A model generated the notes under the pieces. That model made no database searches and was not told where the DNA came from. It was given only the letters and a program-made list of their open reading frames with translations. Of a DNA stretch of 64,000 nucleotides, positions 2 to 54,849 are shown piece after piece. Positions within the stretch are counted from its first letter, which is position 1. The number at the start of each line of letters is the position of its first letter. Source of the stretch: Protonemura montana (lineage: Eukaryota > Arthropoda > Insecta > Plecoptera > Nemouridae); assembly GCA_947568835.1 (NCBI GenBank), contig OX387611.1, positions 7,816,001 to 7,880,000 of the forward strand, read 5' to 3'. The position numbers and the translations under genes are program-made.

Positions 2-2819
2 CATGCCAAAAATGTTGACTCGTATGGAACTGGAACATCAAGTGTGCCAATCCTATTTGTGACGGAACTTTATAGTAAAAGCCAAGAAATCAAAACGAGT
101 CAATTAATAAACAAGCAAACTGATTTAAGACCCAAAAAAAGTCGGCAAGCACCAGTGAACGAAACATTTCAGAGACGTGTTGAAAAAAGACTTGTCATCT
201 CTGTTCAACACCACGTGGCAATCAACAAGTTTGTGGAGAAAATAGCCTTTGCTTTTCGTCTCATTTTGATGCATCAAGTCAACGCCTCTGTGTGTCCGAT
301 CATCGCCGGGGTTGTTCTCATCACCAATGTAAGTGGATTCCTCACTATCGCTTTGCGAACACAAATTTAAAGTTCGTTGCAGATAAGCGTTTTTTTTTAT
401 TGTTAGAAACGCTAATTATGTTTCATAAGTGAATCCTCAAAAAGCCTTGTAATAGCTAACACCCACGAGAGGTAAAGGTCGAGGTACGCGTTCACGGTTT
501 ATAACAATATGAAACTTAGCTAATGCAAGAATTTGCTACACATAATATTGATAAAATTTTTTATAATACGTTCAACGTTTGAATACTTGAGACACTTTGG
601 CCCGATATTACAAGTTTTTCAATTATTAGATTTACAGTAGTAAATAAATCAATTACCATGGCAACAAGCAACCACATACAGTGAAAGTAAGTTGTTTCTA
701 AGAGTTAGGAACTCAACTCACAGTTGAAACATATTGTAAAACCGGGTCTAAGAGCCGTAAGCCCCTCCCCCCCTCACATTTCCCCTCACGTGAGGGGTTT
801 CCAACCTTGTTTAATGCTAAAAAAACTCAGGAATAAATATGGTTAAGAAATAAATTAGTTATATATTGCTTAAATCACTGCACCCCTGCACCCTCCAGGC
901 GCCAACCTGATCATGGAGACTAAGCCCCCAGAATTTCCTTTTTATTACTCAAGAGTCTTGCCAAGATATAATTATTCTTTAATTTTACCACAAGCACACA
1001 GAACCGCAAACAAAGAGTTAGAGTTAACCCAACCTGCTAGAGTTAACCTGTTATTTAAACAATCGTTTGAAAAAGGTCAGAGTTTAGGGCATAATTTGAT
1101 TTGCTTTATTTTTTCTAGATGGCACAGTTTGAAACGAGAATGCTTCTTTTCCTGATTCTTATTGCTGCATGTCTGATCCCTACGGCAATCATCTGTTGGT
1201 TTGCCGACATGGTGACAGAGGAGGTAAGATATTTCAAATCCATTTGATGGCTAGGTGATAATCTAGTACTTCTGTTACGGGCTTCATAAAGGGATAAAAA
1301 CAAACAGAATAAAATGTGACTGTCTGTATTAATTAGATGTACTTATTATTAATTTAATTTAATTTTTTAAGTCAAATACAAATTACACCAGTACTCACAA
1401 TACTACCGGCACTCACACCCAAACCCATGAGCGAGCTCTCTAATATTTTGTTGTGAATTCCTGATTTATTGCCCGAATAGCCAATTATAACTCCTGGCGA
1501 ACCACAAATATAACTTACAGCTGACCTATCATGCAATAATTGCCGTCTTGCTTGGTTAATGTATTAGTTCGTGGAATCATTTAATCTGCACTCTTAGCAT
1601 TATTTGTAAATAATATCCGTTCTGAGTAGTCCTAAAAAACCACCTGGTCCCAGAAGAACCAGTGCAAAAATACCTACAAAATTAATTTTAATATAAGTTA
1701 TAAGAACGGTCTTTGCTGGAATTGTATGAAGCAAACCAGTTTTTGCAGTAAAATCGCGGCAGTGCCGTAAAGTCACTCTAATAGTAATTAAGAATATTGT
1801 AAACAACACCACATTCAACACCACATCGCTTTATCCTTCGATCGAAGCTTTATCATAGCGTTGCTTATTTGGAAGAAAACTAAGTGGATTTTTGTTTTGC
1901 ATCAATCGTAAGAAACATTGGCTATTATGTTTTAGAGTGATTTACTCCGAGAGGCTGTGTTTGGCTGCGACTGGCTGCGCGCGTCGGACAGTTTCAAACG
2001 GTCTATGCGCATCATCATGTCTCGCAGCAACCAGCCGCTGGTCATCAAGGTGGCCGAATTTATCCCCCTGAACATGGAGACCTTTTACGCTGTTAGTAAA
2101 TGCATATATTAGTGGGTTTTTCGAAGCACTTTTTTGACAAAGAACACGCAGATCGCCTCCAGTGCACACACTAGGAGAACTGGGGCAGCCAGTCAGATAC
2201 TCAACTAACCATTTCCGGTTCTATGTCGACTGTCATTTGAAATTTTATATGTTTTTTTCATAACAGCTAAACTGCAAGTATTGGCGTCTTGGCAATACTT
2301 TAGAAGTTTTGAAAATGTTAATAAAAAAGGACTCTAATAGAAAAAACGTTTCCTTCCTGTAGACGAGGTCGTCTAGATGCTGTTTGGAACTCTTGATTTC
2401 TTGGTAGCACACCTGCAAATAGGCGCCGGCGAACCACACCCTGACAGACGTTTTGACAGGGCACTCGTGGTGCAGAATGTCAATTACACCATTTTCTCAA
2501 TGCACAACCCAGATAAGAAGGAGTGTTACTCAATCGTTGCCCAGTACAAGGAATTTGCTGAATCTGCACTCTACGCAAAAGTACACCTGTCATTGCGTAA
2601 CCCTGCCAAAACCAGCCGATTCTGCCAAGTCCCAAAGAACTAGGAAAAATACATTGCTTGCTTCACTTCTGGCATCACCCGTTCTTATCTGACATCCATT
2701 GTTCAACAAGGCTGCAACGGTCATTTTATGTGACTACTGTTTTTGTGTTTCAGATAATTAAGTTGACTTTCACTTACTACAAGTCGCTGAGTACTGCGCA
2801 TCACAAAAGCGCTAACTGA
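2..2819 (+). CDS. Odorant receptor gene OR-A (7tm_6 family), 5' end outside window
   Basis: This is the 3' part of an insect odorant receptor, a seven-helix ligand-gated channel subunit of sensory neuron dendrites. I see four exons at 2-328, 1119-1223, 1936-2091 and 2754-2819, each with AG/GT borders and phase 0 joins. The exons encode a hydrophilic loop plus TM5 (ending PIIAGVVLITN), TM6 (QFETRMLLF...CWFADMVTEE), the conserved LLREAVFGCDWLRASDSFKR block, and a short last exon (IIKLTFTYYKSLSTAHHKSAN, stop TGA). The last blocks match the family's C-terminal A-Y-x-x-x-W, P-L-x-x-x-T-F and S-Y-x-x-L pattern. Exon 3 here uses a GTTAGT donor, unlike the GTRNRN-type donors of its paralogues. An AATAAA lies at 2861. 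The window starts inside the exon that corresponds to exon 4 of OR-B, so four visible exons equal exons 4-7. It is a close paralogue of OR-B; the family call is secure, the ligand unknown. Confidence 0.85.
2377..2643 (+). other. Unrecognised open reading frame inside OR-A last intron
   Basis: An 88-codon open frame sits in the last intron of OR-A. From about 2430 its base composition and codon use look coding (many C/G third positions), unlike the AT-rich intron around it. The peptide contains FDRALVVQNVNYTIFSMHNP and YKEFAESALYAKVHLSLRNP and ends at TAG 2641-2643. A possible splice acceptor (CAAATAG) precedes 2424. I do not recognise the family. It could be a captured exon, a retrocopy fragment or a separate small gene; an alternative terminal exon of OR-A is also formally possible. 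Confidence 0.35.
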
Positions 2820-7100: not shown

Positions 7101-8772
7101 AAGCCAACGGTACATTTCTACTTAGCGAAAAAGGAGGAGCCAGTACCTGCCAAACATGTTGACTCTTATGGAAACAGATCATCACGTTCGGTAATCGTAC
7201 TCGGGACAGGACTTAATAGTAGAAGTCCCAAAACCAAATCAAGTCAGTTAAAAATCGAGAAAACCAATTTTGGACTCAAAACACGGCGGCAAGCACCAGT
7301 GAACGAAACATTTCAGAGATGTATAGAAGAAAACTTTGCGATTTCTGTTCGACACCACGTGGCAATCAACAAGTTTGTGGAGAAAATTAGCGTCGCGTTT
7401 CGACTGATTTTGATTCACCAAATCAACGCCTCTGTGTGTCCAATTATTGCTGGCGTTGTTCTTATCACCAATGTGAGTAGAACACGTAATTAAAATTGAT
7501 GTGTCCCCTATATCTAATCCAACCCCCCGCCCCCCTCTCACTCCACTAACCACACAATTTTGTTCGACCCATTCAGATGACTGAGTTTGAACCGCGAATG
7601 ATTCTCTTTATGGTTCTCGTGGCTGGTTGCCTGACACCTACTGCGATCATCTGTTGGTTTGCGGACATGGTGACAGGCGAGGTAAGCTGTTTCCAACCTA
7701 TTACATACATTTTCTTAAGTAATTTTCTTAATTGTCTTAAGAAACTAGAGGTCGTTCATGGTTATTTTGCAACTTTAATCACTATAAAAAATCATGCCTG
7801 AACCTAGTTGACCTTCGCAACCCGAACCCGAACAATTTTTCGTGGTAGCAAATATTCTGCCATAAAAAAAAAATAAAAACGTTGCAAGCATTCAGCAATT
7901 TTTTTCCTAGAGTGCTTTTCTCCGAGAGGCTGTGTTCAGCTGCGACTGGCTGCGCGCGTCGGACAGTTTCAAACGGTCCATGCGCATCATGATATCTCGT
8001 AGCAACCAAATTTTGGTCATCAAGGTGGCAGGTTTCATTCCTTTAAATATGGAGACTTTTTACAGCGTATGTATTTCATCTTTGGATTACATTGTTATCT
8101 TTGTTAACATCTTTGTAAACATTGTTATTGGTATTTTAAATCTTGCAGAATACTCGTTTTCGATACCTGGTAACGTTAATTTTATCTTAAATAATGCTTA
8201 TCCCAACGATCGATAAACATGTGTCGATTACAAACTTCGTGATTGGAATAGGAGAGATTTGTTAGAAATACTCATTTGCTCAGCAGATAGTTTCAAATGT
8301 AAACAGGTCGAACTCTTTTTTTTGAACTCAATGACATATCTGTGCATCGACGGTGAATTCATAGACTAGATTCATTTACAGCATACGAAAGTATGATAAC
8401 ATTTTTGAAGAAATCAATCAAATCATTGTATTGAACTTGAAAAAGGGGATTCTCTTTAAGGAAATCATAGGGACATTTATTAGGGACTTCATAAGGGATA
8501 GCGGATAACGATCAACAACATTATTTTACATTTCCAAATTCTTCCAAATTCCTATTAAATCAAAAAACAATTCCGTAATTTTGCCCTCTAGCTTCACTTG
8601 TCCGTGACTTAAGTGAAAAAATGTGGCTACCGGTGAGATTTCTCGTTGAAAATGCTGACACGTCCTAAGTATTGTTATTATTTTTTGAACTGGTTTTTGT
8701 TCACAGATAGTCAAACTGACTTTTACATACTTCAAGTCGTTGAATACTGCGCATCACAAAAACGCTGGCTGA
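4194..8772 (+). CDS. Odorant receptor gene OR-B (7tm_6 family), complete, seven exons
   Basis: Exons: 4194-4299, 4997-5429, 6085-6309, 7091-7472, 7577-7681, 7911-8066, 8707-8772. Joins are phase 1, 2, 2, 0, 0, 0, giving an uninterrupted 490-residue protein. It should be a plasma membrane subunit of an olfactory ligand-gated channel, working with a co-receptor. Exon 1 gives the cytosolic N-terminus (MVNSGFFDILFLAFKRW). Exon 2 carries TM1-TM3, and exon 3 holds the family hallmark WYPYD...SPNFELT followed by TM4. Exon 4 starts with a long basic, unconserved loop and ends with TM5; exon 5 has TM6; exons 6-7 have the conserved FLREAVFSCDW and TFTYFKSL blocks. At 490 residues it is longer than the usual roughly 400, and the excess lies in the loop between TM4 and TM5. 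AATAAA is at 8848. Introns 1 and 3 hold 43-bp minisatellite arrays. The start was chosen because OR-C and OR-D have first exons of identical length (106 nt) and phase. Confidence 0.9.
4374..4890 (+). repeat. 43-bp minisatellite array 1 (OR-B intron 1)
   Basis: About 12 copies of a 43-bp unit built around AACACGTGAAAGTTGCACTG and GGGGCAGAGTCACATGCCCA. Each unit has a CACGTG palindrome and a TCACATG core. The array starts after TCAACTCTGCCAGTCG and ends near a GCAGATCACTCCTCGTGCAC tail, borders shared with the other arrays. Confidence 0.95.
5919..6005. repeat. Near-perfect palindrome (hairpin) in OR-B intron 2
   Basis: The arms TTATCAACACTATAATCGTC and the inverted GACGGTTATAGTGTTGATTA flank a GATGCC-gaaacgg-GGCATC apex, giving about 37-bp arms. 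It is bordered by AAAGCTT direct-repeat-like sequence. It could be a small fold-back transposon; no protein is encoded. Confidence 0.8.
6465..6580 (-). mobile_element. tRNA-derived SINE fragment
   Basis: Read on the minus strand it has a B-box-like GGGGTTCGAGTTTCC preceded by an A-box-like GCTAGAGCAACACC. Related minus-strand pieces lie near 10150 and 42760. It directly precedes the 43-bp array of OR-B intron 3. Confidence 0.6.
6584..6970 (+). repeat. 43-bp minisatellite array 2 (OR-B intron 3)
   Basis: About nine copies of the same 43-bp unit as array 1, very homogeneous, ending in GCAAATCGCTCCCGGTGCAC. All three frames stay open through the unit, which creates meaningless ORFs of repeated HWGRVTCP-type peptide. 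Confidence 0.95.
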
Positions 8773-9292: not shown

Positions 9293-9358
9293 ATAATCCA
9301 ACTGATTTTATCATACTTCAATTTGTTAAATGCTGTACATCACAAGAGCACTGGCTGA
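9293..9358 (+). pseudogene. Duplicated, stranded last exon of OR-B
   Basis: A second copy of the terminal OR exon, 66 nt with its acceptor (TTTTACAG) and stop TGA, encodes IIQLILSYFNLLNAVHHKST-G. The preceding 60 bases (GCTGACACGTCC...) also match the sequence before OR-B exon 7 at 8647-8706. A segment of about 590 bp was therefore duplicated in tandem. It has no upstream exons of its own. It could be an alternative 3' exon of OR-B, but is more likely a relic. Confidence 0.75.
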
Positions 9359-9599
9359 AAAATAGTTAACCATTGTCTCTTTCGTCTTTATTTCATTATC
9401 TCCTTTTCTTGTAAGCCAACTAATATTTATGCACTATATCTGTAATATTACTCTATCGTATTGTATTTATTGTACTAGTGTATTTGACATGTTCATATCT
9501 GGAAGAATCAATCGAATAAAACTATTATTATCATTATTATTCAAATTCAAATTCAAATTCAAATCCATTTGAACGCCTCTTTCCTGACCAAAATCAGTC

Positions 9600-9790
9600 T
9601 ACATCGTTACATCGTCTACATCGCTGGCTGATTCGCACATTACATACGGCTTTCTAGCTTGGGGTAATGCTTCGGAGTACCAATGTTATTGCAAAAATTT
9701 CGAAAATCCTAAATAGGAACATAAAAAATCTTGCCCCGTATTCAGTCACGCACAAAAACTTAGATAATATTAATATTTTCTAAAAAAATT
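9600..9790 (+). mobile_element. Decayed non-LTR retrotransposon fragment (RT C-terminal region)
   Basis: The translation reads ADSHITYGFLAWGNAS, which fits the S-H-L-x-Y-G-x-x-x-W-G-x-A motif found just after the reverse transcriptase core of Jockey/CR1-like non-LTR elements. It is interrupted by stops and frameshifts within about 100 bases on both sides. A related piece on the minus strand lies at 22320-22470. Confidence 0.55.
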
Positions 9791-9799
9791 GTCTAATTT

Positions 9800-11940
9800 T
9801 ACCAGTGAGAGAATTGTTCGAGTTTAAAATTCTTTTAAAATTCTATTTTGTTGATAACTACAAAGTTCTAAATTCTAAATTTCTAATGAAATCAAGGCTA
9901 CGAAACAAATGCCCTTACTAAATCCCACCATACGCAAATAAACATGGTAAAATACTCTTTAGATTGACTCTGCAGAAATCTGTGGCCAGCTGAAATTAAT
10001 CAAATCATTATCTTGTTTTTAAAACCTTCTTTCTTAAGATGTCATGTCGATTCATTGTTTGATTATAGTATTGATCAATCTTACAGATTCGCCGTGAAAT
10101 CAGATTTTAATTACAAAGGCTTGCAATGCTCTGTTTTTTTTTTATTATTATGAACCCTTATAACCTCGCTCCAATTGATATTGGAACGTGGACTCGAACC
10201 CCGATATCACTGGTCTTATCATCACCTCGGCCAGCACCCATGAGTCAACAGGTAAACCGTTATCACGGCACACATAACAGCCAACACCTGACTACAAAAA
10301 CATCACGTAGACCACTTTTTATCAATGAGATCATCGCAAGGTACACGAGCAGATTCCAGGTGAAGAAGTCGAGATTAAAGAATAGACATTAAAATATCAT
10401 CTCTTTCTTCTTGAATTACATTTCTGTTTTCTAACCTCTGAATCACGCGTGTAGTTCGCAGAAACAATTAAACCAATTGATCTTATGTAATCCTGGAATG
10501 ACTTACTTGTTAAAGGGGCATTGACCATTCGAAATTAATTTTTATCTTGGATTTGTAACTGTAATATGAATTTAAATTGATTTATTTAAAAGAATTAACT
10601 GAAAATACGGATAGATTTGTGGTTTTTCGCGCGGCGCGATCTGCGACCTGAGTACGATTCTCTTGTAGAGTACTGTCTTTCCCTGCGGCCGCTCCGTTGG
10701 CCATAGTCGCCAAAAGTCTATCGCCTCCCTACCCTGCCCCCACCCTGCCCTAACCCCTCCCACTCTTATCCCCACCCTACCCTATCACCATCCTCCCGAT
10801 TCTCCCTTCCGAGCGCTGTCGCTGCCGCTCAGAGCGGCACTACACGAAAATATGCAACATGCTAATTACATACATGCGGTAATTCACTTACCGTGGCTAA
10901 ACAAATAATCTTATCACAAAGCCAAATTATTTCAACACAGAGGAAGGATGGAGGACTTTGCTCAAATTATTTGAATTTTATCTGATGAGAGGTTTGTCTA
11001 GGTGCTTGGGGTCGAAAAAACACTACAGGATTTCTTACGGGAGTTTGTTTTCTAAGCACCCAAGCCGAAAAACGCGGACAATTTCTGCACGGACAGCCGT
11101 GGACACAGGAGTTATTTTTTATAGTCAAATGTCAATATTAAATCTTTCAAATCTATAGTAAAAATTAATGTTAGAGGGTGAATGCACCTTTAAATACTAC
11201 TACGATATTTTTTACCACCTCTTGAATTTCCTGAAAACATTCAAGGTGATCTAATAGAAGTTGTTTAGAAGAAATAAAAATAAATATTTCTAACCCCCCC
11301 GTAGATTATCGAAATTAGCGTCCATCCCTTCATTGACATTGACTTTCACTGATGCACGAAGAGCTTTTATGCAAGTTAAATGTGTAAATGTTAAACATTA
11401 ACATTCCAGCTTGGTTTAAACAACATAACTAATGTCGCGTGCTAATATCTTCACTATCGCAGGGAGACTTCTTTCCGTCAAAATACCAAGTATTGTGCTA
11501 ATCTAGGTCAAATTATTAAACCAACAATTAAAGTGTAAACTTCTCATTCCAATTACTTGGTCATTTCTAAATATAATTTTATGTTTTTGGTGTCGTTTGA
11601 TTGAAAAATTGATAAACTACAAATTTGTCGTTGAAATTTTTTTATATCTCCCTTATATTTTAAAATCGTCGTGTTTTTATTAAAAACCATTCCTAAGCAG
11701 GCTGCAGGGGTGAAAAACAATGAAACCATGCGTTGATTTAAATACACTTTTGGGCCATTGTTCAGGAAAATGTCCTGAAGTTCTCTTGTTACTAGTTTTG
11801 TCAAACCTGAACCTAAAGTTCCTCGGCTATAAAATCAAATAATCGTGAGTAAAAAAGATGTGTGAGTCAGTGAACATTTGAACTGCGGTGATAAAAGTAA
11901 ACAAGATAACACCGAGATTACGTAACATAGGGAAAGCAAT
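9800..11940. other. Non-coding interval with SINE fragment and C-rich tract
   Basis: No gene is supported here. A tRNA-derived SINE fragment lies at about 10150-10300 (minus strand, B-box CGGGGTTCGAGTCC). A GC-rich, pyrimidine-rich tract at 10620-10860 (CCCTGCCCCCACCCTGCCC) stands out from the AT-rich surroundings. The open frames here show no recognisable domain. Confidence 0.6.
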
Positions 11941-13710: not shown

Positions 13711-14990
13711 CAGCTGGCTGGATTCTATGCTCTATCCAGGTTATTTGAAATCAGCTGGCTGGATCCTATGCTCTAACCAGGTTATTTGAGATCAGCTGGC
13801 TGGATCCTATGCTCTATCCAGGTTATTTGAGATCAGCTGGCTGGATCCTTTGCTCTATCCAGGTTATTTGAGATCAGCTGACTGGATCCTACGCTCTATC
13901 CAGGTTATTTGAGATCAGCTGACTGTATCCTATGCTCTATCCAGGTTATTTGAGATCAGCTGGCTGGATCCCATGCTCTATCCAGGTTATTTGAGATCAG
14001 CTGGCTAGGTCCTCTGCTCTATTCAGGTTATTTGAGATCAGCTGGCTGGATCCTACGCTCTATCCAGGTTATTTGAGATCAGCTGGCTAGATCCTATGCT
14101 CTATCCAGGTTATTTGAGATCAGCTGGCTGGATCCTATGCTCTATCCAGGTTATTTGAGATCAGCTGGCTGGATCCTATGCTCTATCCAGGTTATTTGAG
14201 ATCAGCTGACTGTATCCTATGCTCTATCCAGGTTATTTGAGATCAGCTGGCTGGATCCCATGCTCTATCCAGGTTATTTGAGATCAGCTGGCTGGATCCT
14301 ATGCTCTATCCAGGTTGTTTGAGATCAGCTGGCTGGATCCTATGCTCTATCCAGGTTATTTGAGATCAGCTGGCTGGATCCTACGCTCTATCCAGGTTAT
14401 TTGAGATCAGCTGACTGTATCCTATGCTCTATCCAGGTTATTTGAGATCAGCTGGCTGGATCCCATGCTCTATCCAGGTTATTTGAGATCAGCTGGCTAG
14501 GTCCTCTGCTCTATTCAGGTTATTTGAGATCAGCTGGCTGGATCCTACGCTCTATCCAGGTTATTTGAGATCAGCTGGCTAGATCCTATGCTCTATCCAG
14601 GTTATTTGAGATCAGCTGACTGTATCCTATGCTCTATCCAGGTTATTTGAGATCAGCTGGCTGGATCCCATGCTCTAACCAGGTTATTTGAGATCAGCTG
14701 GCTGGATCCTATGCTCTATCCAGGTTATTTGAGATCAGCTGGCTGGATCCTATGCTCTTTCCAGGTTATTTGAGATCAGCTGGCTGGATCCTATGCTCTT
14801 TCCAGGTTATTTGAGATAAGCTGGCTGAATCCTATGCTCTATCCAGGTTATTTGAGATCAGCTGGCTGGATCCTATGCGCTTTCCAGGCTATTTGAGATC
14901 AGCTGGCTGGATTCTATGTTATATCCAGGTTATTTGAGATCAGCTGGCTAGGTCCTCTGCTCTATTCAGGTTATTTGAGATCAGCTGGCT
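13711..14990 (+). repeat. 41-bp satellite array with higher-order structure
   Basis: About 31 copies of a 41-bp unit containing GAGATCAGCTGGCTGGATCC and TATGCTCTATCCAGGTTATT, each with a CAGCTG E-box palindrome. Variant units (GACTGTATCC, GGATCCCATG, TAGGTCCTCTG, GGATCCTACG, TAGATCC) occur in the same order at about 13916 and 14408, showing that blocks of about five units were copied together. Confidence 0.95.
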
Positions 14991-14997
14991 TCAGTTG

Positions 14998-15636
14998 CTG
15001 ATTTCAGATCAGAGATTTCAGTTGCTGAAAAATATTTATTTCATGCTTGAATAGCTTGCAATAAAAGTGTTAGTCATCGATCGGTGGTTTAGATAAAAGA
15101 CAATAACATTTTTGCTTGGAATTTGTTGCGTAATCTTGTCTAGGCTGGGGCTAAAAATACGCGTCGTATTTTGACCAATTTACCACCAACTTAACATAAA
15201 CTTGGCACGTTTGTGGTACCAACATGACGGCCGTGACACCGCGCTCATTATGATGCTACTTTCAAGTCAGTTTGGTGTTTTCAAATGTTGAAAACTTGCA
15301 AAAAACGCATTTTGTTCACGGTTTCCAGTCGTGATTTTTCGCATATTTACCCAACAAAGTGTGGTCGTTTAGTAAATTAGTTTGTCCGTTGGTATTTGTC
15401 GTTCAATTTTGAATCAGAATCAACTTTGGTAACTTGGCTAGAATATGCGCAAATTGGCTACAACGGCAATGCGCACGTGCAATGAGTAAAATGTCACAGA
15501 ACGACCGAACGAACCTCACTCGTTACCCGTGGCAACCATTAACGGCTTTTATTAAAGGTTGGTTTCCTCCCCTGTCCGTCTTAACAAACGACAGCAGCAC
15601 CAACAAAGCTTGACGTGTGTTTTACTCTGTCCCCAG
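14998..15636. other. Sequence between satellite and NACHT coding exon
   Basis: No open frame of interest. It is probably the 3' part of the 5'UTR intron and ends in a pyrimidine-rich acceptor, TTTTACTCTGTCCCCAG. A transcription start inside it cannot be excluded. Confidence 0.5.
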
Positions 15637-15644
15637 ATCCCAAG

Positions 15645-18600
15645 ATGGAGAAGACCTACGAGAAGATGTCTGGCTTCGCAACGACGCATGGCCAGGAGTT
15701 GGAAATTAATTTGGCAGCCCTGCTCTATCTCAAAGGTATGAACAGCGGTCTCCAGTTCGAGCTCGCCACTAACGTCAAGGGCGCCGGTGCACTGGACGAC
15801 GTCGTCTTCCGGTTCAAGTCCTCGCCAGAAGACAGCTGGACGACCTTGTTCGTTCAGCTCAAGATCAAAGCAAATAGACCGGTCCAGCGTACCATGCTGA
15901 CAAGTCAGAGTTCGAAGGGAGACTTTTCTCTTAAGAAATATTTCGAGTCGTACCTTTCCATCAAGAAGGCCATGTCAGGAGCAGACAAGGGCACTTTGTT
16001 TGACGGGAACTTTGAGAAGAGTTTGTTTGTTATTTTAACAAACGCCAAAGCCAGTGACTCCTTGGGAAACGCGTGTATGTGGACTTTGTGTCAGGCCGAG
16101 GATTTTGTTTGGTGCGGCAAGGGACAAGTCTTCAACTTTGAAGAGGACAAGGAGATTGTCAGCTGTTTGAGTGATTCCGGCGAAGAAGGGAGGAAGTTTC
16201 TGAGCAGACTTCAATTGTTTTGCGGCCAGCCTGCAAACAAGCTGGAAGAGTCAATCAAAGAAGAACTGAGCAAGGTGCAAGTTGAAAGTATCCGGGAGGT
16301 CGACCGTGAAGACCGGTTCAATTGTTTTTTGCGTCTAATGAAAGTTTGGTGGGAAAAAAGCAACACGGTTTTACACAGGGACAGTGAAATTCTTCGGTCG
16401 TTGGTGTTGGACTCCATTTCACTCCAAAGGAGGAGGCAATTTTGCTTGGACCTCGACTTCGAGGAAGCCACTCTCAAGCAGTTAAAAGACTCTGTCCCAA
16501 GAAATTGCAAAGTTTTTATAATCCACTTGTGTGAGAGCTCAGCCCGGCTGAGCCTCACAAAACTGTGCCAGATGTTAGGAGGCCAGCCATTGGTGCTAGG
16601 CTGTAAAGACTTTCTGGCCAGCAAGGATTTACTTCTTGCCCAGTGGCAGAAAGAAAGTGCCAAGGGCCTGATAATCTTCACCAATGGCTCGACCTCCTCG
16701 CACCAAGTGGATTATAATAACATTGTAAAAGCCATGCCTGACATTCCAAACGCTCCTCCCGTTGTGTTCTTGTGCAATACTTATCAAAGTAGTGAAGCAA
16801 TAAGTGACGAGTTCCAAGAGTTGGCTACAAGTTGCGTGGACGAATTCCTGTTCTCACAACTGAAGGCAGAGTCACGAGAGAAAGTCTTAGCGAAGGAAGT
16901 GTTCTTCCAAGGTCACTCGACCACGTTGCGTACGTTACTTGACAACACTCCAGGAAGCACTGACGCTGTGCTCGACGCTTGTTCGGTGGTGGAAGTCTTC
17001 GAATGCGCTGGCAGCTTGACCCTCGGATCTGCGGTCAAAAAGGACATCGGCTACTACGTTGACCGCCGTCTCGAGCGGGTCAATGTGGTGAAAGCCAACG
17101 TGTTCCAAGATGGCGTCCTCCGAGAGTCTGTCACCGTTCGTGTGACGCAGTGTGAGACTTCGGCCGTCCTGGGACATGGTAGTGGTGATGTTAGAGAGTT
17201 TGCAGGGTTTCCTCGAGGCTCAGCCACCAACAATGACCCTGGACTTTTTGCAAAGGTAGTTCGATTTCTCTTTCCACTGAGTGGAACTTTTCACGATGTC
17301 AAAGCAGAAGATTTTGCTAGAAACCTCTTTCAGTCGATGCTGGTCGCCGATAACGGAACTTTAGAGGTTTTCATTGGTCCAAAGTTTCGGCTAGGATTGT
17401 TCGAGTGTAATTCTGTAGGATTGCGTTTCGGCCAACAAGACGCAATCACTGCCTTGTGGGTGTGCAAGAAGAATGCACAAGCAGGCTTTCTCTTTGTCTC
17501 TGAAACAACCAATGAAAACGATTTAAGAATCTTGTCTGCCTTCCACCAGTCAAAGCACTTGTTGATGCTAGATGATGGAAAGCTGCGTTGGATTCAATCC
17601 CATGAAGACATCGAGTCGATTCGACCACATATTGACGCGGACCAAGTCTCGACGTTCTCGCCTAAAGACGCAACGGATGTCGAGGACAGATTGGTGCTGG
17701 TCTGCGCCGAGCCGGGCATGGGCAAGTCGACGCTGATGGCTCGGCTGGCAAAGAAAACCAATGAGGATCACCCAAATTGTTTTGTTTTTTTGGTCACCCT
17801 CAACGACCACACCACGTTATTTGCCAGAAATAAACACAAGGATGCGCTGGGATTTTTGTGCAGTGCGACCAACATCCAGTCGCACTTCCATCGGTCGCTG
17901 CTAAAGTACGCGTTGAAGGTTACTGGCGAGGTCGTCGTGCTCTTTGACGGGTACGACGAGGTTGCCCCGAAGTACGTCAAGGAAAGCTGTGACTTGCTGT
18001 CAAGTCTGATGAAGGAAACAAAAACAAAGAAGATTTGGATGACTTCAAGAAACTCGGTAAGAAAAATCCTGGAGGCTGAAATTTTAAAATTCTCTGTGAC
18101 GCTGCGCAAGTTTGACAAGGAGGACCAGATAAACTTTTTGAAAACGTTTTGGGCGCAAAAATCGAAACTGTCTGATAAAGAGTTGGATACATTTGTCGAA
18201 GAACTTGTCAAAAAAGTATCTCAAGCCATCCTAGACAACGAAGGCAACTTTATGGGCATTCCGCTTCAGACTCGGATGTTGGCTGAAGTGTATGAAGACC
18301 ACGTGACAGGCCCGGCAGGGACGAAGACCGAACTTCCCGACAAGCTGGACTTGGTCGTGTTGTTGGAGCAGTTTGTTGACAAGAAATTCAACATCTACTA
18401 CAGAGAAAAACTAAATATAGCATCCAGTGATACAAATTACGAGCTCATCTCAAAAGCGTTACGCAATGAATTCTATGAAAATCATTCAACTTCAGCACTT
18501 GTTTTAATTCTTGGTGATGACGACATCAAAACACTGCACATGGAATCGACTATTGAGGAATATACTAAATTTTGCAAAGAAATTGAAAGTGGTTCGTACA

Positions 18601-21380
18601 AGACAGGAATAATCGACGTCATTGTAAACGGCAAGCCACGCTTCAATCATCGCGTCTTTGCTGAGTATTTCGTAGCAAAGTGGATCTCAAAGCATTTTGC
18701 TGACAACCGGAAGTTGGTTGAATCCAAGATGTTCACAGTCGACTTCGCAGTGGTTAGGCACATTTTCGACCGGATTTTGATCAAAAACTCCGCCCTTCTC
18801 ACCGCGGTGGTCAACGAAGACCTCGAGAAAGTCCGGACTTTGCTGGAGCGTGAAGACATTAAAGTTGGTGCTATTAAAGATGGCGGGGGCAGGACAGCGC
18901 TCCACCTAGCGGCAAGTTACGGAACCAGCGAGGTACGGGAGGAAAACGAAAAGCGTGGTGAGATCCTCGACTTGTTGATCGGGAAAACCAGCGACTTCGA
19001 CCAAGTTGACGATGTTTCGGGCGTCTCTCCACTTAGATATGCTGACGTCACGTGCTCGTGGGTCGCTGTTGACAGATTCAAGCCATGTTCAGCCAACAAA
19101 GAACAATTGCCTCTGACTTTAGAAGACGTGACTCATCACGGCATGCTCGATAATGTATTCGACTTTGACTTGCACAATCTGTTGGGCTTTTGCTTGGACA
19201 ACGGTCTTCCAGTTGAACATTGTTTCGAGGGAGAGAAACGACTTCTTCACAGAGCGTGTGAACAAGGCTGCTTGAAAGTGGCGTCCCTTCTCATCGACAC
19301 AGTAACCAATCAGAATAAATCATTTTTGCACGTGGCATCTAAATCTAGACCCAAACAGATTGTCAAAGTTCTGTACCGACACTTGAAATCAAACCTTAAA
19401 AATTCCTCTAACCATGCAACAAGTGCGTCACAACAACTTCAACTTGCCAACTTCATCAACATGGCCGACGAGTATGGCAACACTGCAATTCATCTCGCTG
19501 CACGTGGAGGTCGCTCAGATGTCGTCAGGTATTTACTAAGCAAGGGCGGCGACCCACGAAGCACTGGCCGTTACAACAACAACACTCCATTACACGATGC
19601 GGCTAGATACAAGCGGCCTGACGTAGTGAGAGTCTTACTGGAGGCTGTGGACGAGGCTGACAGAGCTGATGCTGTCAACGCTAGAGACTACGGTTTTAAC
19701 AGTGTGTTGATGTGTGGGGCTGAGGGAGGTTGTGTGCAATGTGTTGGGCAGCTGGTCGAGGCTGGCGGGAAGATGAGTCAAGTAAGAGGTGCTCGTCGCA
19801 CGACGTTGATGTTAGCGGCAGGTCGAGGTCATGTTAAGGTTGTAAGATATCTGCTAGACAACTTCAGTACAGAGAATGAAGGAATTAGTCTGGTGGACTT
19901 CATCAACATGACCGACGAAGATTTCAACACTGCAATTCGTCTCGCTACACGTGAAGGTCACTCAGATGTCGTCAGGTATTTACTAAGCAAGGGCGTCGAC
20001 ACACGAAGCACTGACCGTTACAACAACACTCTATTACACACTGCGGCTGTCAACAAGACGACAAGACGACAAGACGACAAGACGACAAGACGACAAGACG
20101 TAGTGAGAGTCTTACTGAAGGCTGTGGACGAGGCTGACAGAGCTGATGCTGTCAACGCTAGAGGCGAAGATGGTGAGAGTGTGTTGATGCTGGGGGCTGG
20201 GAAAGGTTGTGTGGAATGTGTTCGGCTGCTGGTCGAGGCTGGCGGGAAGATTAGTCAAGTTAATGATTATGGTAGCACGGCTTTGATGTTATCGGCACGT
20301 AACGGTCATGAGGAGGTTGTAAGATATCTGCTGGACAACTTCAGTGCAGAGAATGAAGGAATTAGTCTGGTGGACTTCATCAACATGGCCGACAAGTATG
20401 GTGACACTGCAATTCGTCTCGCTACACATGAAGGTCACTCAGATGTTGTCATGTATTTACTAAGCAATGGCGTCGACCCACAAAGCACTGACAGTTACAA
20501 AAACATAACTCCATTACACATTTCGGCTCGCAACAAGCAGCCTGACGTAGTGAGAGTCTTATTGGAGGCTGTGGACGAGGCTGACAGAGCTGATGCTGTC
20601 AACGCTAGAGACAGTAATGGTTACAGTGTGTTGATGTGGGGGGCTAAGGCAGGTTATGTGGAATGTGTTGGGCTGCTGGTCGAGGCCGGCGGGAAAATTA
20701 GTCAAGTGGGTGATGATGGTCGCACGGCGTTGATGATAGCGGCACGTGAAGGTCATAAGGAGGTTGTAAGATATCTGCTAGACAATTTTAGTGCAGAGAA
20801 TGAAGGACTTAGTCTGGTGGACTTTATCAACATGACCGACAAGGATGGCAACACTGCAATTCATCTCGCTGCACGTAGAAGTAACTCAGATGTCGTCAGG
20901 TATTTACTAAGCAAGGGCGGCGACCCACGAAGCACTGACCGTGACAACATGACTCCTTTACACACTGCGGCTGTCAACAAGCGGCCTGACGAAGTGAGAG
21001 TCTTACTGGAGGCTGTGGACGAGGCTGACAGAGCTGATGTTGTCAACGCTAGAGGCAACATATATGATGTGAGTGTGTTAATGTGTGGGGCTCGGGGAGG
21101 TTGTGTGAAATGTGTTGGGCTGCTGGTCGAGGCTGGCGGGAAGATGAGTCAAGTGAATGATGATGGTTGGACGGCGTTGATGGAAGCGGTACGTGGAGGT
21201 CATGTTAAGGTTGTTAGATATCTGCTAGACAACTTCAGTGCAGATTATGAAGGAATTAGTCTGGTGGACTTCATCAACATGACCAACAAGATTGGTATCA
21301 CTGCAAGTTATATCGCTTTCCTTAACGGTTACTCACAAATCGGGCGTCTTCTGAGACGCCATGTCAACTCCTCCACTTAG
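15645..21380 (+). CDS. Cap4/DUF4297-like nuclease - NACHT - ankyrin repeat protein (NLR-like), single coding exon
   Basis: A 1911-residue protein in one uninterrupted exon. Residues 1-110 look like a PD-(D/E)XK nuclease: GQELEINLAALLYL (E18/E20), GALDDVVFRF (D51/D52), FVQLKIK (Q71-x-K73), then GDFSLKKYFESY. Residues 680-1015 are a NACHT STAND NTPase: Walker A EPGMGKST (689-696), Walker B VVVLFDGYDE (763-772), sensor-like WMTSRN (798-803) and the helical-domain motif FNHRVFAEYFVAKW (1000-1013). Residues about 1082-1911 are ankyrin repeats, with four long tandem units of about 149 residues. Inferred role: an intracellular sensor whose ankyrin part binds a ligand, NTPase oligomerises, and nuclease acts as effector, like bacterial Avs proteins. 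I start at ATG 15645, eight bases after a good acceptor; an ATG-less upstream extension in frame to 15615 exists. AATAAA at 21933. Coding GC is clearly higher than the flanks. Domain calls are by motif only; a laterally acquired gene is possible. Confidence 0.85.
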   Translation: MEKTYEKMSGFATTHGQELEINLAALLYLKGMNSGLQFELATNVKGAGALDDVVFRFKSSPEDSWTTLFVQLKIKANRPVQRTMLTSQSSKGDFSLKKYFESYLSIKKAMSGADKGTLFDGNFEKSLFVILTNAKASDSLGNACMWTLCQAEDFVWCGKGQVFNFEEDKEIVSCLSDSGEEGRKFLSRLQLFCGQPANKLEESIKEELSKVQVESIREVDREDRFNCFLRLMKVWWEKSNTVLHRDSEILRSLVLDSISLQRRRQFCLDLDFEEATLKQLKDSVPRNCKVFIIHLCESSARLSLTKLCQMLGGQPLVLGCKDFLASKDLLLAQWQKESAKGLIIFTNGSTSSHQVDYNNIVKAMPDIPNAPPVVFLCNTYQSSEAISDEFQELATSCVDEFLFSQLKAESREKVLAKEVFFQGHSTTLRTLLDNTPGSTDAVLDACSVVEVFECAGSLTLGSAVKKDIGYYVDRRLERVNVVKANVFQDGVLRESVTVRVTQCETSAVLGHGSGDVREFAGFPRGSATNNDPGLFAKVVRFLFPLSGTFHDVKAEDFARNLFQSMLVADNGTLEVFIGPKFRLGLFECNSVGLRFGQQDAITALWVCKKNAQAGFLFVSETTNENDLRILSAFHQSKHLLMLDDGKLRWIQSHEDIESIRPHIDADQVSTFSPKDATDVEDRLVLVCAEPGMGKSTLMARLAKKTNEDHPNCFVFLVTLNDHTTLFARNKHKDALGFLCSATNIQSHFHRSLLKYALKVTGEVVVLFDGYDEVAPKYVKESCDLLSSLMKETKTKKIWMTSRNSVRKILEAEILKFSVTLRKFDKEDQINFLKTFWAQKSKLSDKELDTFVEELVKKVSQAILDNEGNFMGIPLQTRMLAEVYEDHVTGPAGTKTELPDKLDLVVLLEQFVDKKFNIYYREKLNIASSDTNYELISKALRNEFYENHSTSALVLILGDDDIKTLHMESTIEEYTKFCKEIESGSYKTGIIDVIVNGKPRFNHRVFAEYFVAKWISKHFADNRKLVESKMFTVDFAVVRHIFDRILIKNSALLTAVVNEDLEKVRTLLEREDIKVGAIKDGGGRTALHLAASYGTSEVREENEKRGEILDLLIGKTSDFDQVDDVSGVSPLRYADVTCSWVAVDRFKPCSANKEQLPLTLEDVTHHGMLDNVFDFDLHNLLGFCLDNGLPVEHCFEGEKRLLHRACEQGCLKVASLLIDTVTNQNKSFLHVASKSRPKQIVKVLYRHLKSNLKNSSNHATSASQQLQLANFINMADEYGNTAIHLAARGGRSDVVRYLLSKGGDPRSTGRYNNNTPLHDAARYKRPDVVRVLLEAVDEADRADAVNARDYGFNSVLMCGAEGGCVQCVGQLVEAGGKMSQVRGARRTTLMLAAGRGHVKVVRYLLDNFSTENEGISLVDFINMTDEDFNTAIRLATREGHSDVVRYLLSKGVDTRSTDRYNNTLLHTAAVNKTTRRQDDKTTRRQDVVRVLLKAVDEADRADAVNARGEDGESVLMLGAGKGCVECVRLLVEAGGKISQVNDYGSTALMLSARNGHEEVVRYLLDNFSAENEGISLVDFINMADKYGDTAIRLATHEGHSDVVMYLLSNGVDPQSTDSYKNITPLHISARNKQPDVVRVLLEAVDEADRADAVNARDSNGYSVLMWGAKAGYVECVGLLVEAGGKISQVGDDGRTALMIAAREGHKEVVRYLLDNFSAENEGLSLVDFINMTDKDGNTAIHLAARRSNSDVVRYLLSKGGDPRSTDRDNMTPLHTAAVNKRPDEVRVLLEAVDEADRADVVNARGNIYDVSVLMCGARGGCVKCVGLLVEAGGKMSQVNDDGWTALMEAVRGGHVKVVRYLLDNFSADYEGISLVDFINMTNKIGITASYIAFLNGYSQIGRLLRRHVNSST
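19449..21380 (+). repeat. Tandem coding repeat: four ankyrin super-units plus a truncated fifth
   Basis: Units begin at codons 1269, 1418, 1577, 1726 and 1875, each starting with (D/N)FINM. Lengths are 149, 159, 149, 149 residues and a 37-residue stub. Each full unit has four ankyrin repeats. The DNA is strongly conserved between units (for example GAGGCTGTGGACGAGGCTGA in all), so duplication was recent or gene conversion is active. Confidence 0.9.
20053..20100 (+). repeat. 8-bp microsatellite (ACAAGACG)x6 inside the coding sequence
   Basis: Six perfect copies in ankyrin unit 2 replace the KRPD/KQPD linker of the other units with TTRRQDDKTTRRQD. The unit length is not a multiple of three, so only changes by three copies keep the frame; the present allele is in frame. 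Confidence 0.9.
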
Positions 21381-22009: not shown

Positions 22010-22216
22010 CAGGACATGGGGCAGGACATGGGGCAGGACATGGGGTAGGACATGAGGCAGGACATGGGGCAGGACATGGGGCAGGACATGGGGCAGGACA
22101 TGGGGTAGGACATGGGGCAGGACATGGGGCAGGACATGAGGCAGGACATGGGGCAGGACATAGGGCAGGACATGGGGCATGACATAGGGCAGGACATGGG
22201 GCATGACATGGGGCAG
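22010..22216 (+). repeat. 12-bp tandem repeat (GGACATGGGGCA)n
   Basis: About 17 copies with few variants (GGACATGAGGCA, GGACATGGGGTA). It keeps frames open on both strands, which explains the MSCP- and MGQD-type spurious ORFs. Confidence 0.95.
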
Positions 22217-29200: not shown

Positions 29201-30367
29201 TCAAAATAATAGTGTTGTTTTTTAGAGTGAGTTACTCCGAGAGGCTGTGTTTGGTTGTGACTGGCTGAGTGCTTCGGCCGGTTTTAAACGGTCCGTTTGC
29301 ATCATGATATCTCGCACCAACCAACCTTTGATTATCAGGGTGGCTGGGTTTATTCCTTTGAACATGAGGACGTTTTTCGAGGTGAGTTGTCAAAACTGTG
29401 CTTGCATTTCGGTGTCACTTGTAAGATCAAGTTTTTTTGTCAAACGAGGTATGCAGAAATTTTTAGAAAAAAAAACTTGAAAGAACATTAGAAACTATCG
29501 ACTTCTTACCCCAATATTGCTACCAACGCATGCATTTTGATTATTATTTTAGTATTGGCATTTTCTAGCCCAGCAAAAATTAACGTTATTATTTCAAACT
29601 AGCGCAGACAAGTGTTCAACATTTTTATAATCAACTTCAAGTTTTTTATTTGTTAACTTTTAACCAAGGACTTTATACTTAAACTTTTCCAATTAAATTT
29701 TTTTAAATAGAATCTACTAATTTCCGGTCAGGGGCTCTTTAAACTGAGCTTTACGGGCACACAGATTCCAGTTTTGTGGTCTGGGATAAGTGATACTTTT
29801 AAGATGGGCAGAAGCCAAGGCGAGTCGTGCTAGTACAAGTAGCCTCGACCTATAACTACTTTAACCATCCCGCAAAACTGGAATATGTAACATTTTTCAC
29901 ACCTTTCTATTATTCTTTCTCCAACTCACATCACTTGACTTAAAACTTGAAAATCAATGGAAGACTTAAAATCAAGAAAACGAGTAGAAGGAGAGCAGAT
30001 CAAAACAAACGAACAGAATTTTTGTATATTTTGTAATTCACTTTTTGACTTAATCTGATGCTATGTTTGCCTGGACGACCTGCAATTGATTATTTTGGAA
30101 ATGCTTTCTGTGTACTAATCATGTACGGGAGATTCTGGATCTAGTCAGAAAAACAGAAATTTCATTTATTTTTGTTGTTTTTACTTTTATACTTGGAAGC
30201 TCACTTATTTATTAATGTAGTGACGAGAAAATTGTTAGTTAAAAGTTTATTTTGAACATTATTTTGAAAGTTTTTCCTCTTTTTTTCCCCAGTTAATGAA
30301 GATTACGTATACCAACTTTACATCTTTAAACACAGCGATCCAGCTACGATTGAAACACGTGGAGTGA
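23265..30367 (+). CDS. Odorant receptor gene OR-C (7tm_6 family), complete, seven exons
   Basis: Exons: 23265-23370, 24115-24547, 26033-26269, 26632-27010, 28127-28231, 29226-29381, 30293-30367, with the same phases as OR-B, giving an open 496-residue protein. Exons 1, 2, 5 and 6 have exactly the same lengths as in OR-B (106, 433, 105, 156 nt). Landmarks are MAKSGLVSIFLSAFKLW, TM1-3 in exon 2, WHPHEITESPNFELT plus TM4 in exon 3, a long loop and KHHVALDLFVTKIRDAF plus TM5 in exon 4, TM6 (LALCWFCGMVNDE), SELLREAVFGCDW, and the last exon LMKITYTNFTSLNTA. It should be an olfactory channel subunit in the dendrite membrane. AATAAA is at 30371. Intron 5 holds a 43-bp array and intron 4 a CRE-bearing repeat shared with OR-D. 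The N-terminal start is supported by the matching 106-nt first exons of OR-B and OR-D. Confidence 0.9.
25560..25870. mobile_element. MITE-like repeat copy in OR-C intron 2
   Basis: Its right part (TTTTGACCTAAAACCTCCTT, GCCGATAAGCAAGATTTCAA) matches sequences at 32470-32610 and 43785-43913. The left arm is unclear, so the left border is approximate. Confidence 0.5.
27410..27530. repeat. Imperfect hairpin with AATCTAAG motifs
   Basis: CAGAGAATCTAAGTTAG occurs at both ends, with inverted TTAGATTCTAACTAAGATTC between. It lies in OR-C intron 4. Likely a small fold-back element. Confidence 0.5.
27955..28080 (+). repeat. Dispersed repeat with CRE-like site in OR-C intron 4
   Basis: The stretch from GCTAGTGATCACGTGTTCGG to GTGCAGACCAGTCGAAAACG, with ATGACGTCAC inside, is about 80 percent alike to 37415-37540 in OR-D intron 2. 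It has no coding potential. Confidence 0.65.
28300..28400 (+). mobile_element. tRNA-derived SINE fragment, second family
   Basis: CCGGCAATCGGGAGGTCTCG is followed by GGTTCGTATCCTGGC, matching the piece at 13100-13145. It lies in OR-C intron 5. Confidence 0.5.
28800..29172 (+). repeat. 43-bp minisatellite array 3 (OR-C intron 5)
   Basis: About 8.5 copies of the 43-bp unit. The left border CACCGGGAGTGACCC is the inverted counterpart of the CTCCCGGTGCAC tail seen at other arrays, so the whole element may have short inverted ends. Confidence 0.95.
29735..29890. mobile_element. Short fold-back element
   Basis: Arms ATTCCAGTTTTG (29765) and CAAAACTGGAAT (29872) flank about 100 bases. It lies in OR-C intron 6. 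Confidence 0.5.
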
Positions 30368-39330: not shown

Positions 39331-41194
39331 AATTAGTTTCTTACCAGCTGTGCTTGTATACACAATCTTATACATATTTCAGATTTCGTGCAACATTGAG
39401 TTTCATTTTAATTTATGGACTTGATAAAAAAAAGGCTTTTTTTACGACGGTATTAAAAATGTCTATGCAAAGTCAGAGAAAAGTTTTTTTTCCAGGCATC
39501 CGAGTATGATAGCAGATTGTTTATCTTCACTGGTCTTGTCATTTTACAATTGATAAACTAAGTGATATTTTGTTGGCTAGGAGAGCAGATCAACGAACAA
39601 GTGAGTAACCTTACAGTCAGTTTAACAAGTCAAGATAAAAAGATTTTTCACAGTGATAGAAAAAAAGAGAAGTTGCCTGACTGGCTGTGACCATAGATAT
39701 TTGATTTCAATTACTGATGCAGTCAACATTTAAGGAACTCTGATATCTGGAGTAGAAAAAAAAAACAATTTTCTTGGTGTCTTATAACTGTTCGATAATT
39801 AGCATTTTTCGAGTTCTGGATTTCAACCTTTTTTTAAATATTGTTATAGTGACTTTTTAGCTTATAAAGTGTTTACAAAAGTTGCGCTGGCATGGGTAAG
39901 CGTAAGCGTGTGTTAAACCTTTATCCTAGTAGCACAATTAATTAACAGATACAACGACGCCTTGAGTTTTTAACCATTTGAGCCATCCAAGTCAGGCTTT
40001 GAGTGTCACCTTATGAGTCCTCAAGGTTTCATACCAAAGTCAAGTTCGCTGTTACCTAAAATTAATTCTATCCCTGATCCGGTTCCTTATTCCGAATTCT
40101 AGTCTCAATATGCACACCTTTCAAAATAGGTATTCTAAAAACGGACGACAGCTTAATCATAACTAACGAATTAACTATGGCTTGTAAAAACAACAGAAAT
40201 GAGTACCCGACCGGCAATTGGGAGGTCCAGTCTAGCTTCCTATCCAAATAAAAATTGGTTTCAAATCTTGGCATACCTCAAAATGCTTTAAATATTGACC
40301 CGTGTCTTGTTCCATAAGATAATTTTTCAAATTTTTTTTTTTTTAATTCTATTTAATTTGCAGCACGATTTACTCCGAGAGGCTGTGTTCGGCTGCGACT
40401 GGCTGCGCGCGTCTGACAGTTTCAAACGGTCTATGCGCATTATTATGTCTCGCACCAACCGGCCGTTGATAATTCGCATTGCTGGTTTTATTCCGTTGAA
40501 TTTGCAGTCATTTTTACAGGTAACAATTAGGGTTTACCCATAATTGACAAAGCATTACGCTCAAGCACAAGCATAGCACACAAGGTTCTCAAAACTTAGG
40601 AATCATATGGGACTGCACACAATCCACATTAGACGCATTTAACACAAACATGGATTCTAACAATGTTAAAATGTTTTAAATTATCTATGTGTCTAAAACA
40701 CATAAGGTTCGAAGATCTTTTTTTTTTACATATATTTTCTATAGCCAGAAAATAAAACCTTTATTCTTCAGCTTAGGCGCATTGGGGTTTAAGGTTTACA
40801 AGTGTAAACTGGAAAGAAATGTGTTTGATTCGTGATCATTTTGGTAGGCATCAACATTTCAAACAGTCTTGACTCGACTATCTTAGCTGCGTTGCCAACT
40901 CACAAACCTATCCGCACCCCTTCCCACCAGAAACAGGATTGCGTTGCAATGCAAAATATTCGACATCGAAGTCCAATTCATCAATTCAGTATATTTTGAC
41001 TTTGAAAAAAGTGTGAATAAAGACCCTATGCTTAAACTCGATGCACATGTGTTTTGGGATACAAAATACAGTCCAATTATTTCCAAAATTCGACTGTTTA
41101 TCAGATGCACCCTTCTTTCTGTTTACAGGTTTTGCAACTCATCTATTCGTACTACATGTCATTAACAGCAACATTAAAAATCAATCAACATTGA

Positions 41195-54846: not shown

Positions 54847-54849
54847 TTG

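Follow-up and report, generated by a model that had tools for sequence, protein, structure and literature searches.

The window analysed here, the whole 64,000-nucleotide stretch of the genome of the plecopteran insect Protonemura montana, corresponds to C14:7816001-7880000 in an assembly of 258 Mb and 34 contigs. It carries a gene in which a predicted nuclease domain is joined to a NACHT module and ankyrin repeats. A stop-free frame extends from 15585 to 21380 on the forward strand, and from the ATG at 15645 it runs for 1,911 uninterrupted codons. The order of the domains is a Cap4/LmuA-like PD-(D/E)XK nuclease, a conserved middle region, the NACHT, and about 20 ankyrin repeats (Table 1). A pyrimidine-rich stretch with an AG at its end lies directly 5' of the ATG and is conserved in all seven aligned copies; it may be a splice acceptor.

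Table 1. Features of the window; positions are counted from its first nucleotide.
Feature	Positions	Strand	Evidence or remarks
3' splice site of 5' untranslated region intron, putative	15619..15636	+	AG kept in 7/7 aligned copies
Cap4/LmuA-like PD-(D/E)XK nuclease core, residues 1-140	15645..16064	+	G16, E20, D51, D52, Q71, K73, T132; profile matches
C-terminal part of nuclease region, residues 141-290	16065..16514	+	LmuA match covers residues 50-278; dN/dS 0.35-0.66
Conserved middle region, residues 291-660; FFQG segment near residue 421	16515..17624	+	BLAST matches
NACHT STAND NTPase module, residues 661-1075	17625..18869	+	PF05729
About 20 ankyrin repeats, residues 1076-1911	18870..21377	+	PF12796 (Ank_2), E 3.9e-114
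In-frame 8-bp microsatellite, 6 copies, inside one ankyrin repeat; residues KTTRRQDDKTTRRQD	20053..20100	+	
41-bp satellite upstream of gene	13711..14990	.	
12-bp minisatellite downstream of gene	22010..22216	.	
Odorant-receptor exon (7tm_6)	1924..2109	+	
Odorant-receptor exon (7tm_6)	7908..8069	+	
Odorant-receptor exon (7tm_6)	29208..29384	+	
Odorant-receptor exon (7tm_6)	40352..40525	+	
Hairy/Orange bHLH fragment	44002-44550		

The Pfam scan of the whole window protein gave ankyrin repeats, the NACHT and weaker P-loop NTPase matches, and nothing else; residues 1-660 had no match (the nuclease none at E ≤ 1). The NACHT scored well above the cut-off (PF05729, E 4.7e-11, 43.2 bits against 26.7; best stretch 683-834). 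It contains the Walker A motif EPGMGKST (689-696), the Walker B motif LFDGYDE (766-772) and the segment FNHRVFAEYF (1000-1009), and the positions GMGK, DGxDE, R802, W836, P873, H1002 and Y1008 are unchanged in 17 of 17 aligned sequences. Q422 of the middle region is invariant in alignments A3 and A5, and BLAST matches to this region are also found in some relatives lacking the nuclease (e.g. P0007 and P0009). In the ankyrin region, 17 repeat anchors were located by pattern, one more (1314) by hand, and two or three degenerate ones by eye. The array consists in part of super-units of about 149 residues with four repeats each, visible in the DNA as a 447-bp tandem array at 20097-21317.

The original prediction, made from the letters of this DNA alone, had described an NLR-like protein (NLR, nucleotide-binding leucine-rich repeat receptor) with a Cap4-type nuclease, a NACHT and about 20 ankyrin repeats. 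All of the residues it named are present, namely E18/E20, D51-D52, Q71-x-K73 and the three NACHT segments given above. The assignment of the NACHT was borne out, and its repeat count is fair. Regarding the pair E18/E20, only half of the claim stood: the window gene and 20 further copies fetched from the same genome all have E20, D51, D52, Q71 and K73 (21 of 21), and G16 is kept in 20, but E18 in only nine.

The nuclease alignment comprised 26 domains: 12 from the P. montana genome, one each from the contigs L003 and L001, and 12 from other proteins. This set spans cockroach, adelgid, beetle, Culex, Rickettsiella, a WO-like prophage and metagenomes; alignment A6 omits P0013 and 10 of the 20 fetched P. 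montana copies. G16, F38, D51, D52, Q71, K73 and T132 are invariant in all 26 domains; at position 20, 19 domains have E and seven have Q. Together with the 49 genomic matches to residues 1-552 given below, this conservation is far above chance. This arrangement is the catalytic motif of PD-(D/E)XK nucleases of the Cap4/LmuA type, that is, an E or Q in the first helix, followed by D and [E/Q]xK.

Profile comparisons point in the same direction. With PADLOC, residues 1-452 of the window protein matched LmuA (E 6.1e-5, residues 50-278), SAVED-PDDEXK (3e-4) and a CBASS endonuclease effector (5e-4), and residues 1-175 matched SAVED_PDDEXK (5.7e-5) and an endonuclease effector (9e-5). Over the 26 members, LmuA was matched in three and the endonuclease effector PDLC00741 in three, with a best E of 2.1e-5. 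The top profile matches in the PDB were two Cap4 entries, one with E 0.011 covering the G..Y, DD and QxK elements and one with E 0.054 covering G..Y and DD; the sole further match was a transporter subunit (E 0.91). The 26 nuclease domains gave just two weak, unrelated NCBIfam matches. For an hhalign comparison, LmuA/Cap4-type domains were taken from 21 of 29 bacterial loci (L050-L078); against these, the 26 nuclease domains reached an E of 1.8e-6 with a probability of 89.7 and a score of 44.7, whereas the maximum score of 99 valid column shuffles (of 100 run) was 14.6 and that of the reversed alignment was 14.2. The predicted kinship of the N-terminal domain with the Cap4/LmuA nucleases is supported at the profile level, below the detection of PF14130. 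The Cap4-type assignment of the original prediction was upheld by the hhalign score with its far lower controls, by the LmuA match and by the PDB matches.

The gene belongs to a large family in its own genome. Residues 1-552 gave 49 matches and the NACHT part 45; these counts are lower bounds for matches, and several matches are pieces of one gene. Nuclease and NACHT lie in one open frame of at least 1152 codons (same contig, strand and frame length) at 25 places, and a divergent copy with a nuclease at C14:9649316-9653915 brings this number to 26. Nuclease, middle region and NACHT follow in that order in all 20 fetched copies. Ankyrin repeats come after the NACHT in 19 of these, although those of L038 are confined to a second frame and most of those of L034 lie in other frames; in the remaining one, L036, an ankyrin match is absent. 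Among the 26 places are two pairs on C15 (2204823/2230334 and 2211757/2237268) that are 25.5 kb apart and have equal nuclease scores, one pair differing slightly in the NACHT score; these may be a tandem or an assembly duplication. In L027 (C14:450835-459634) and L030 (C14:235693-244692), a long in-frame pentapeptide repeat, (EAKAC)n, interrupts the nuclease region after about residue 150, and these copies are longer there than the window gene by about 190 and about 290 residues, respectively.

The DNA upstream of the ATG is common to six of six recent copies (from 15015 or 15442), and the downstream 12-bp minisatellite is found in five of the six, the sixth stretch ending at the frame. Since the flanking DNA is shared, we infer that the copies arose by segmental duplication; spread by retrocopying is not supported, as all six share the DNA 5' of the ATG. 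A cassette that is always bounded by satellites was not borne out either, because the 41-bp satellite lies upstream of only two of the six copies within the fetched stretches. Synonymous divergence differs by domain within one pair (nuclease 0.19-0.58, middle region 0.07-0.10), which suggests exchange or conversion between copies.

Selection differs among the domains. Against six recent paralogs, the ratio of non-synonymous to synonymous substitution rates (dN/dS) ranges from 0.19 to 0.47 in residues 1-140 and from 0.35 to 0.66 in residues 141-290; the middle region has 0.76-1.09, the NACHT 0.60-0.92 and the ankyrins 1.08-1.37. In three older pairs dN/dS is 0.20-0.52 in every domain. These values bear on two other explanations of the gene. 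The N-terminal domain might bind nucleic acid or scaffold signalling without cleavage, so that the receptor signals to partners. Catalysis by the window domain is a prediction from its sequence, and some PD-(D/E)XK folds have lost catalysis; however, D51, D52, Q71 and K73 are unchanged in 26 of 26 domains, including the bacterial ones, and the nuclease core is under the strongest constraint, so that a non-cleaving role seems improbable. Still less credible, and in our opinion very improbable, is a decaying or non-immune ankyrin family that was spread by segmental duplication and whose long frames survive by youth. The flanking DNA common to the copies, the stops in some copies, and the dN/dS near 1 of the NACHT and middle region in recent pairs would fit such a history, but the 26 open-frame places include copies with nuclease identities of 34-60%, the three older pairs show low dN/dS in all domains, and the motif is kept in 21 of 21 copies.

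Replacements in the ankyrin repeats pile up at repeat positions 1, 2, 3, 5, 10, 13 and 14, and less at position 4. The surface set {2,3,5,13,14,33}, which derives from designed-ankyrin libraries, was fixed before the result, and positions 1, 4 and 10 were noticed afterwards. The pooled ratio of the proportions of changed non-synonymous and synonymous sites (pN/pS) is 2.24 for the surface set versus 1.23 for the core and 1.35 for other positions. For the surface, it is 1.57-3.18 in six of six pairs with the window gene (bootstrap P(≤1) 0 to 0.044), and it exceeds 1 in all of six further pairs, one of which repeats the pair of the window gene with L023. In the three of these pairs that are disjoint, the surface values are 2.33, 6.03 and 2.81 (P(≤1) 0.003, 0.000 and 0.011), versus 1.60, 0.87 and 1.01 elsewhere in the repeats. 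Among the super-units of the window gene itself, the post-hoc set {3,5,10,13,14} has a pN/pS of 3.96 and the rest 1.02. In four countable older pairs, the surface positions still show about twice the replacement change. Judged by position, the change in the ankyrins is clearly focused on the predicted binding surface, as in arms-race receptors.

The reading that we prefer, with a probability of roughly 0.6, is that the window gene belongs to a multigene family by which insects encode intracellular receptors, NLR-like or Avs-like, that would release a nuclease. In the mechanism proposed from the sequence, ligand sensing, oligomerisation, the cutting of nucleic acid and a role against viruses or symbionts would be connected as follows. 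The ankyrin array would bind a variable non-self ligand, and the NACHT NTPase would switch and oligomerise. The clustered N-terminal Cap4/LmuA-type domains would then be switched on for nucleic-acid cleavage, which would destroy foreign DNA or kill the infected cell. The case for an immune sensor is strengthened because the change concentrates on the ankyrin surface.

It should be mentioned that several observations weigh against this receptor reading. For the nuclease, few members (3/26) reach the LmuA model and the PDB matches are marginal; a plain hmmsearch of the nuclease profile against the 21 bacterial proteins gave a best E of only 0.86, and PF14130 (Cap4_nuclease) had no match at E ≤ 1 in the window or in any of the 26 members. 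For the family, broken copies exist (e.g. C13:11424630, C14:7111531 and C14:4948245), and no lipase form, such as those described below for relatives, was found in the P. montana genome. The dN/dS of 0.60-1.09 in the middle region and NACHT could be due to relaxed constraint, and the 95% interval of the whole-ankyrin dN/dS lies above 1 in only one of six pairs. The rest of the repeat is itself at 1.15-1.60 in the window pairs (above 1 with P ≤ 0.025 in two of six), and position 33, although in the fixed set, has almost no replacement; in the repeats of the window gene, positions 2 and 33 together give 0.62. In the four countable older pairs, for which one extra pair was added and L033-L034 yielded no countable repeats, the surface pN/pS is 0.7-1.03 at a pS of 0.5-0.8. 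The surface synonymous counts are small, the copies recombine and the arrays can be misaligned, so that the pN/pS values are soft.

The four 7tm_6 exons flank the window gene on both sides, and this odorant-receptor family is matched at least 129 times in the genome; the host is therefore an insect. Contamination or endosymbiont DNA at this locus is ruled out by these exons together with the bHLH fragment. Close copies of the gene lie on C13 and C14, and more distant ones on other contigs. An insect origin, as originally proposed, thus agrees with the position of the gene and its copies, and the bacterial gene that had been named as the main alternative is excluded for the window locus by the odorant-receptor flanks and by the copies across the contigs of the assembly.

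A protein search with residues 1-660 gave no match among the 8,000 best candidates scored. With residues 520-1075, 21 proteins were found, including those of Periplaneta, Blattella (three), Culex (two) and Lamprigera and a Wolbachia ankyrin protein, and a profile search added two relatives, from Adelges and Zophobas. The nuclease is borne by the Periplaneta, Blattella, Culex, Adelges and Zophobas proteins and by P0002, P0008, P0010, P0014 and P0017; the insects concerned belong to Blattodea, Hemiptera, Coleoptera and Diptera. By BLAST, the nuclease is not matched in the Lamprigera (P0020) and Wolbachia (P0016) proteins. Among the 21 relatives, four from metagenomes (P0006, P0007, P0009 and P0011; the Pfam scan covered five of the 21) have Lipase_3 above the cut-off in place of the nuclease and retain the NACHT and ankyrins. 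These four have no BLAST match to the nuclease core; P0007 and P0009 still have a recognisable middle region, as does P0006, though weakly. Shortly before the nuclease, residues 40-52 of the Blattella germanica protein P0003 read LLMKGCVEQNPGP, which resembles the consensus of a 2A ribosome-skipping peptide.

The family also occurs in intracellular bacteria of arthropods and their phages. On the prophage contig L003, nuclease and NACHT lie in one frame; in the closely related L002, the frame at this place is shorter. The open reading frame (ORF) of L003 has 4,751 codons (14,256 bp) and encodes nuclease, middle region, NACHT, ankyrins, a weak OTU match and Latrotoxin_C. This prophage is taken as WO-like because its domains match and the ORF length equals the largest phage WO gene size quoted in PMC5062602 (14,256 bp). 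On L001, a contig of a Rickettsiella metagenome-assembled genome (MAG), the nuclease and a divergent NACHT are encoded in one frame, which runs off the contig. In this ORF (7833-11558) the Walker B position DGxDE reads FEHYES, and the NTPase of this relative may be degenerate. Two ORFs of 445 and 732 amino acids at L003:358-3901 (reverse strand) adjoin the giant prophage ORF, and the second matches PDDEXK_9 (1.2e-7). The two may resemble the cytoplasmic-incompatibility genes CinA/CinB; NCBIfam gave no match to them.

Of 16 genomes from the order to which the Rickettsiella MAG belongs, four, counting the MAG, matched the nuclease profile, one of them in a short frame. The profile was matched in 1 of 398 sampled Pseudomonadota, this one being the MAG itself, and in 0 of 397 others; the bacterial census is thin, and the scan of genome contigs used one peptide pattern, which gave one locus. 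In tblastn searches with single sequences, plasmid records had no match to the window nuclease and phage records none to residues 1-1078.

Two NACHT trees were compared. The 50-row tree was built without L002, L005, L008-L012 and the P. montana copies L025-L027, and the 32-row tree contained nine window-type P. montana rows and L043, without L004-L014, L044, P0015, P0020 and P0021. In the 50-row tree, 19 P. montana rows form one clade (100/99), which lies inside a 24-row group (99/98) with cockroach sequences and one other sequence; the grouping with cockroach has a support of 92/86 in the 32-row tree. The divergent P. montana copy L043 is placed outside this clade, with lipase and nuclease forms. 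In the 32-row tree, the prophage L003 is sister to the Culex NACHT (99/98), and Wolbachia P0016 groups with Adelges (96/90); the branches of Rickettsiella, Zophobas and Adelges are long. A single clade of three symbiont sequences was rejected in the approximately unbiased test (p-AU 0.0016), as was a clade of two (p-AU 0.0009), the groups in both cases having been named after the first tree. It is therefore likely that genes passed more than once between insects and symbionts, or the phages of the latter, whichever the direction. In the trees and by blastp, the window NACHT shares a clade with the WO-like prophage protein and arthropod homologues, and among the relatives searched it did not fall in a known non-immune arthropod family with another N-terminus. 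The original remark that Rickettsiales carry similar mixtures holds in part: a WO-like prophage and Rickettsiella-type bacteria have members of the family, but the window locus itself is insect chromosomal.

This sharing is also the basis of a different explanation, in which the genes form a symbiont arsenal or genetic-conflict family. They would have moved from Wolbachia- or Rickettsiella-type bacteria or phages to insects, or in the opposite direction, and would owe their spread to a toxin-like or selfish nature or to use against particular symbionts, not to a function as general immune receptors. The matches in 4 of 16 genomes of the order of the MAG against 0 of 397 other sampled Pseudomonadota, the giant prophage ORF with its nuclease-middle-NACHT-ankyrin order and Latrotoxin_C, the Culex-prophage sister pair and the rejected symbiont clade would all fit this. 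On the other hand, the large and diverse group is that of the insects, with the 19 P. montana rows in one clade beside cockroach and L043 elsewhere; the lipase forms, like the changes concentrated at the ankyrin surface, are in keeping with a role in recognition, and only insect genes were identified as neighbours of the window gene. We consider this explanation unlikely, though less so than the two discussed above. A wider form of the receptor reading can be put forward tentatively: insects may hold a large, fast-diversifying class of cytoplasmic receptors with a bacterial-defence-type nuclease as output, or a lipase in relatives, that has been exchanged repeatedly with symbionts and phages. 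Such a class would in effect be an animal Avs system, a weapon common to host and symbiont.

The predicted receptor shares features with several known systems. Bacterial Avs proteins have a Cap4-type nuclease as an exchangeable N-terminal effector, a STAND NTPase, and C-terminal repeats, the sensor being of the tetratricopeptide repeat type. The window protein has the same layout of N-terminal effector, STAND NTPase centre and C-terminal repeats; unlike Avs, which act against phages by sensing conserved phage proteins, it is encoded in an animal genome and has ankyrin repeats as predicted sensor. It has the G..Y[EQ]...DD...QxK arrangement of CBASS Cap4 and Lamassu LmuA, with the profile E of 1.8e-6. 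Cap4 carries a SAVED domain and LmuA works with a separate partner, whereas the window nuclease is fused to NACHT and ankyrins and is missed by PF14130. As in animal NLRs, a NACHT switch is combined with a repeat domain that bears signs of diversifying selection, in a multigene family; in contrast to them, the repeats are ankyrins instead of leucine-rich repeats (LRRs), and an enzyme-like domain replaces the CARD, PYD or death adaptor. Judging from the Pfam scan, in which the LRR and death-fold adaptor were absent, the window protein is not a classical NLR. By membership, the best fit is the arthropod/phage WO NACHT family with a Cap4/LmuA-type nuclease, which would work like Avs and NLRs.

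Insects are usually described as lacking canonical NLRs, as the original prediction also stated for well-studied insects. In the literature searched, mostly listings, no description of the nuclease or of the family as receptors was found. Termite transcripts with NLR and NACHT names are reported in PMC3712931. The NACHT section and the legend to Fig. 5 of PMC5062602 (2016) describe homologues of the phage WO NACHT proteins across arthropods and crustaceans; these NACHT-ankyrin proteins are of the same NACHT lineage, to which the L003 ORF of 14,256 bp, with its NACHT, ankyrins and latrotoxin C-terminal domain, also belongs. These portions of that paper mention neither an N-terminal nuclease nor lipase forms, and they do not address how large the family is in a single genome or selection on the ankyrins. 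The nuclease-NACHT-ankyrin family is apparently a class of insect immune sensor that has been described little and that intracellular bacteria of arthropods have as well. If the receptor reading is true, about 26 open nuclease-NACHT genes in one insect would amount to an NLR-like layer with an effector akin to antiphage nucleases. An animal receptor that acts by direct nucleic-acid cleavage becomes testable, and the presence of host receptors and symbiont or phage proteins in one family bears on the conflict between insects and Wolbachia-type symbionts.

Some further features of the locus were observed. A single 43-bp satellite occurs at five places of the odorant-receptor region (4375-4887, 6585-6972, 28808-29172, 36928-37325 and 38755-39329), once inverted. 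Elsewhere on the contig, at C14:1574191-1652280, seven last exons of odorant receptors with equal scores are spaced by about 13.0 kb, which may represent either a tandem array of very recent origin or an artefact of the assembly. Three 5S rRNA-like sequences (RF00001) lie in the window at 44562-44679 (forward strand, 66.7 bits), 54734-54848 (reverse, 42.8 bits) and 58223-58341 (reverse, 45.4 bits); they are perhaps a 5S-derived short interspersed nuclear element.

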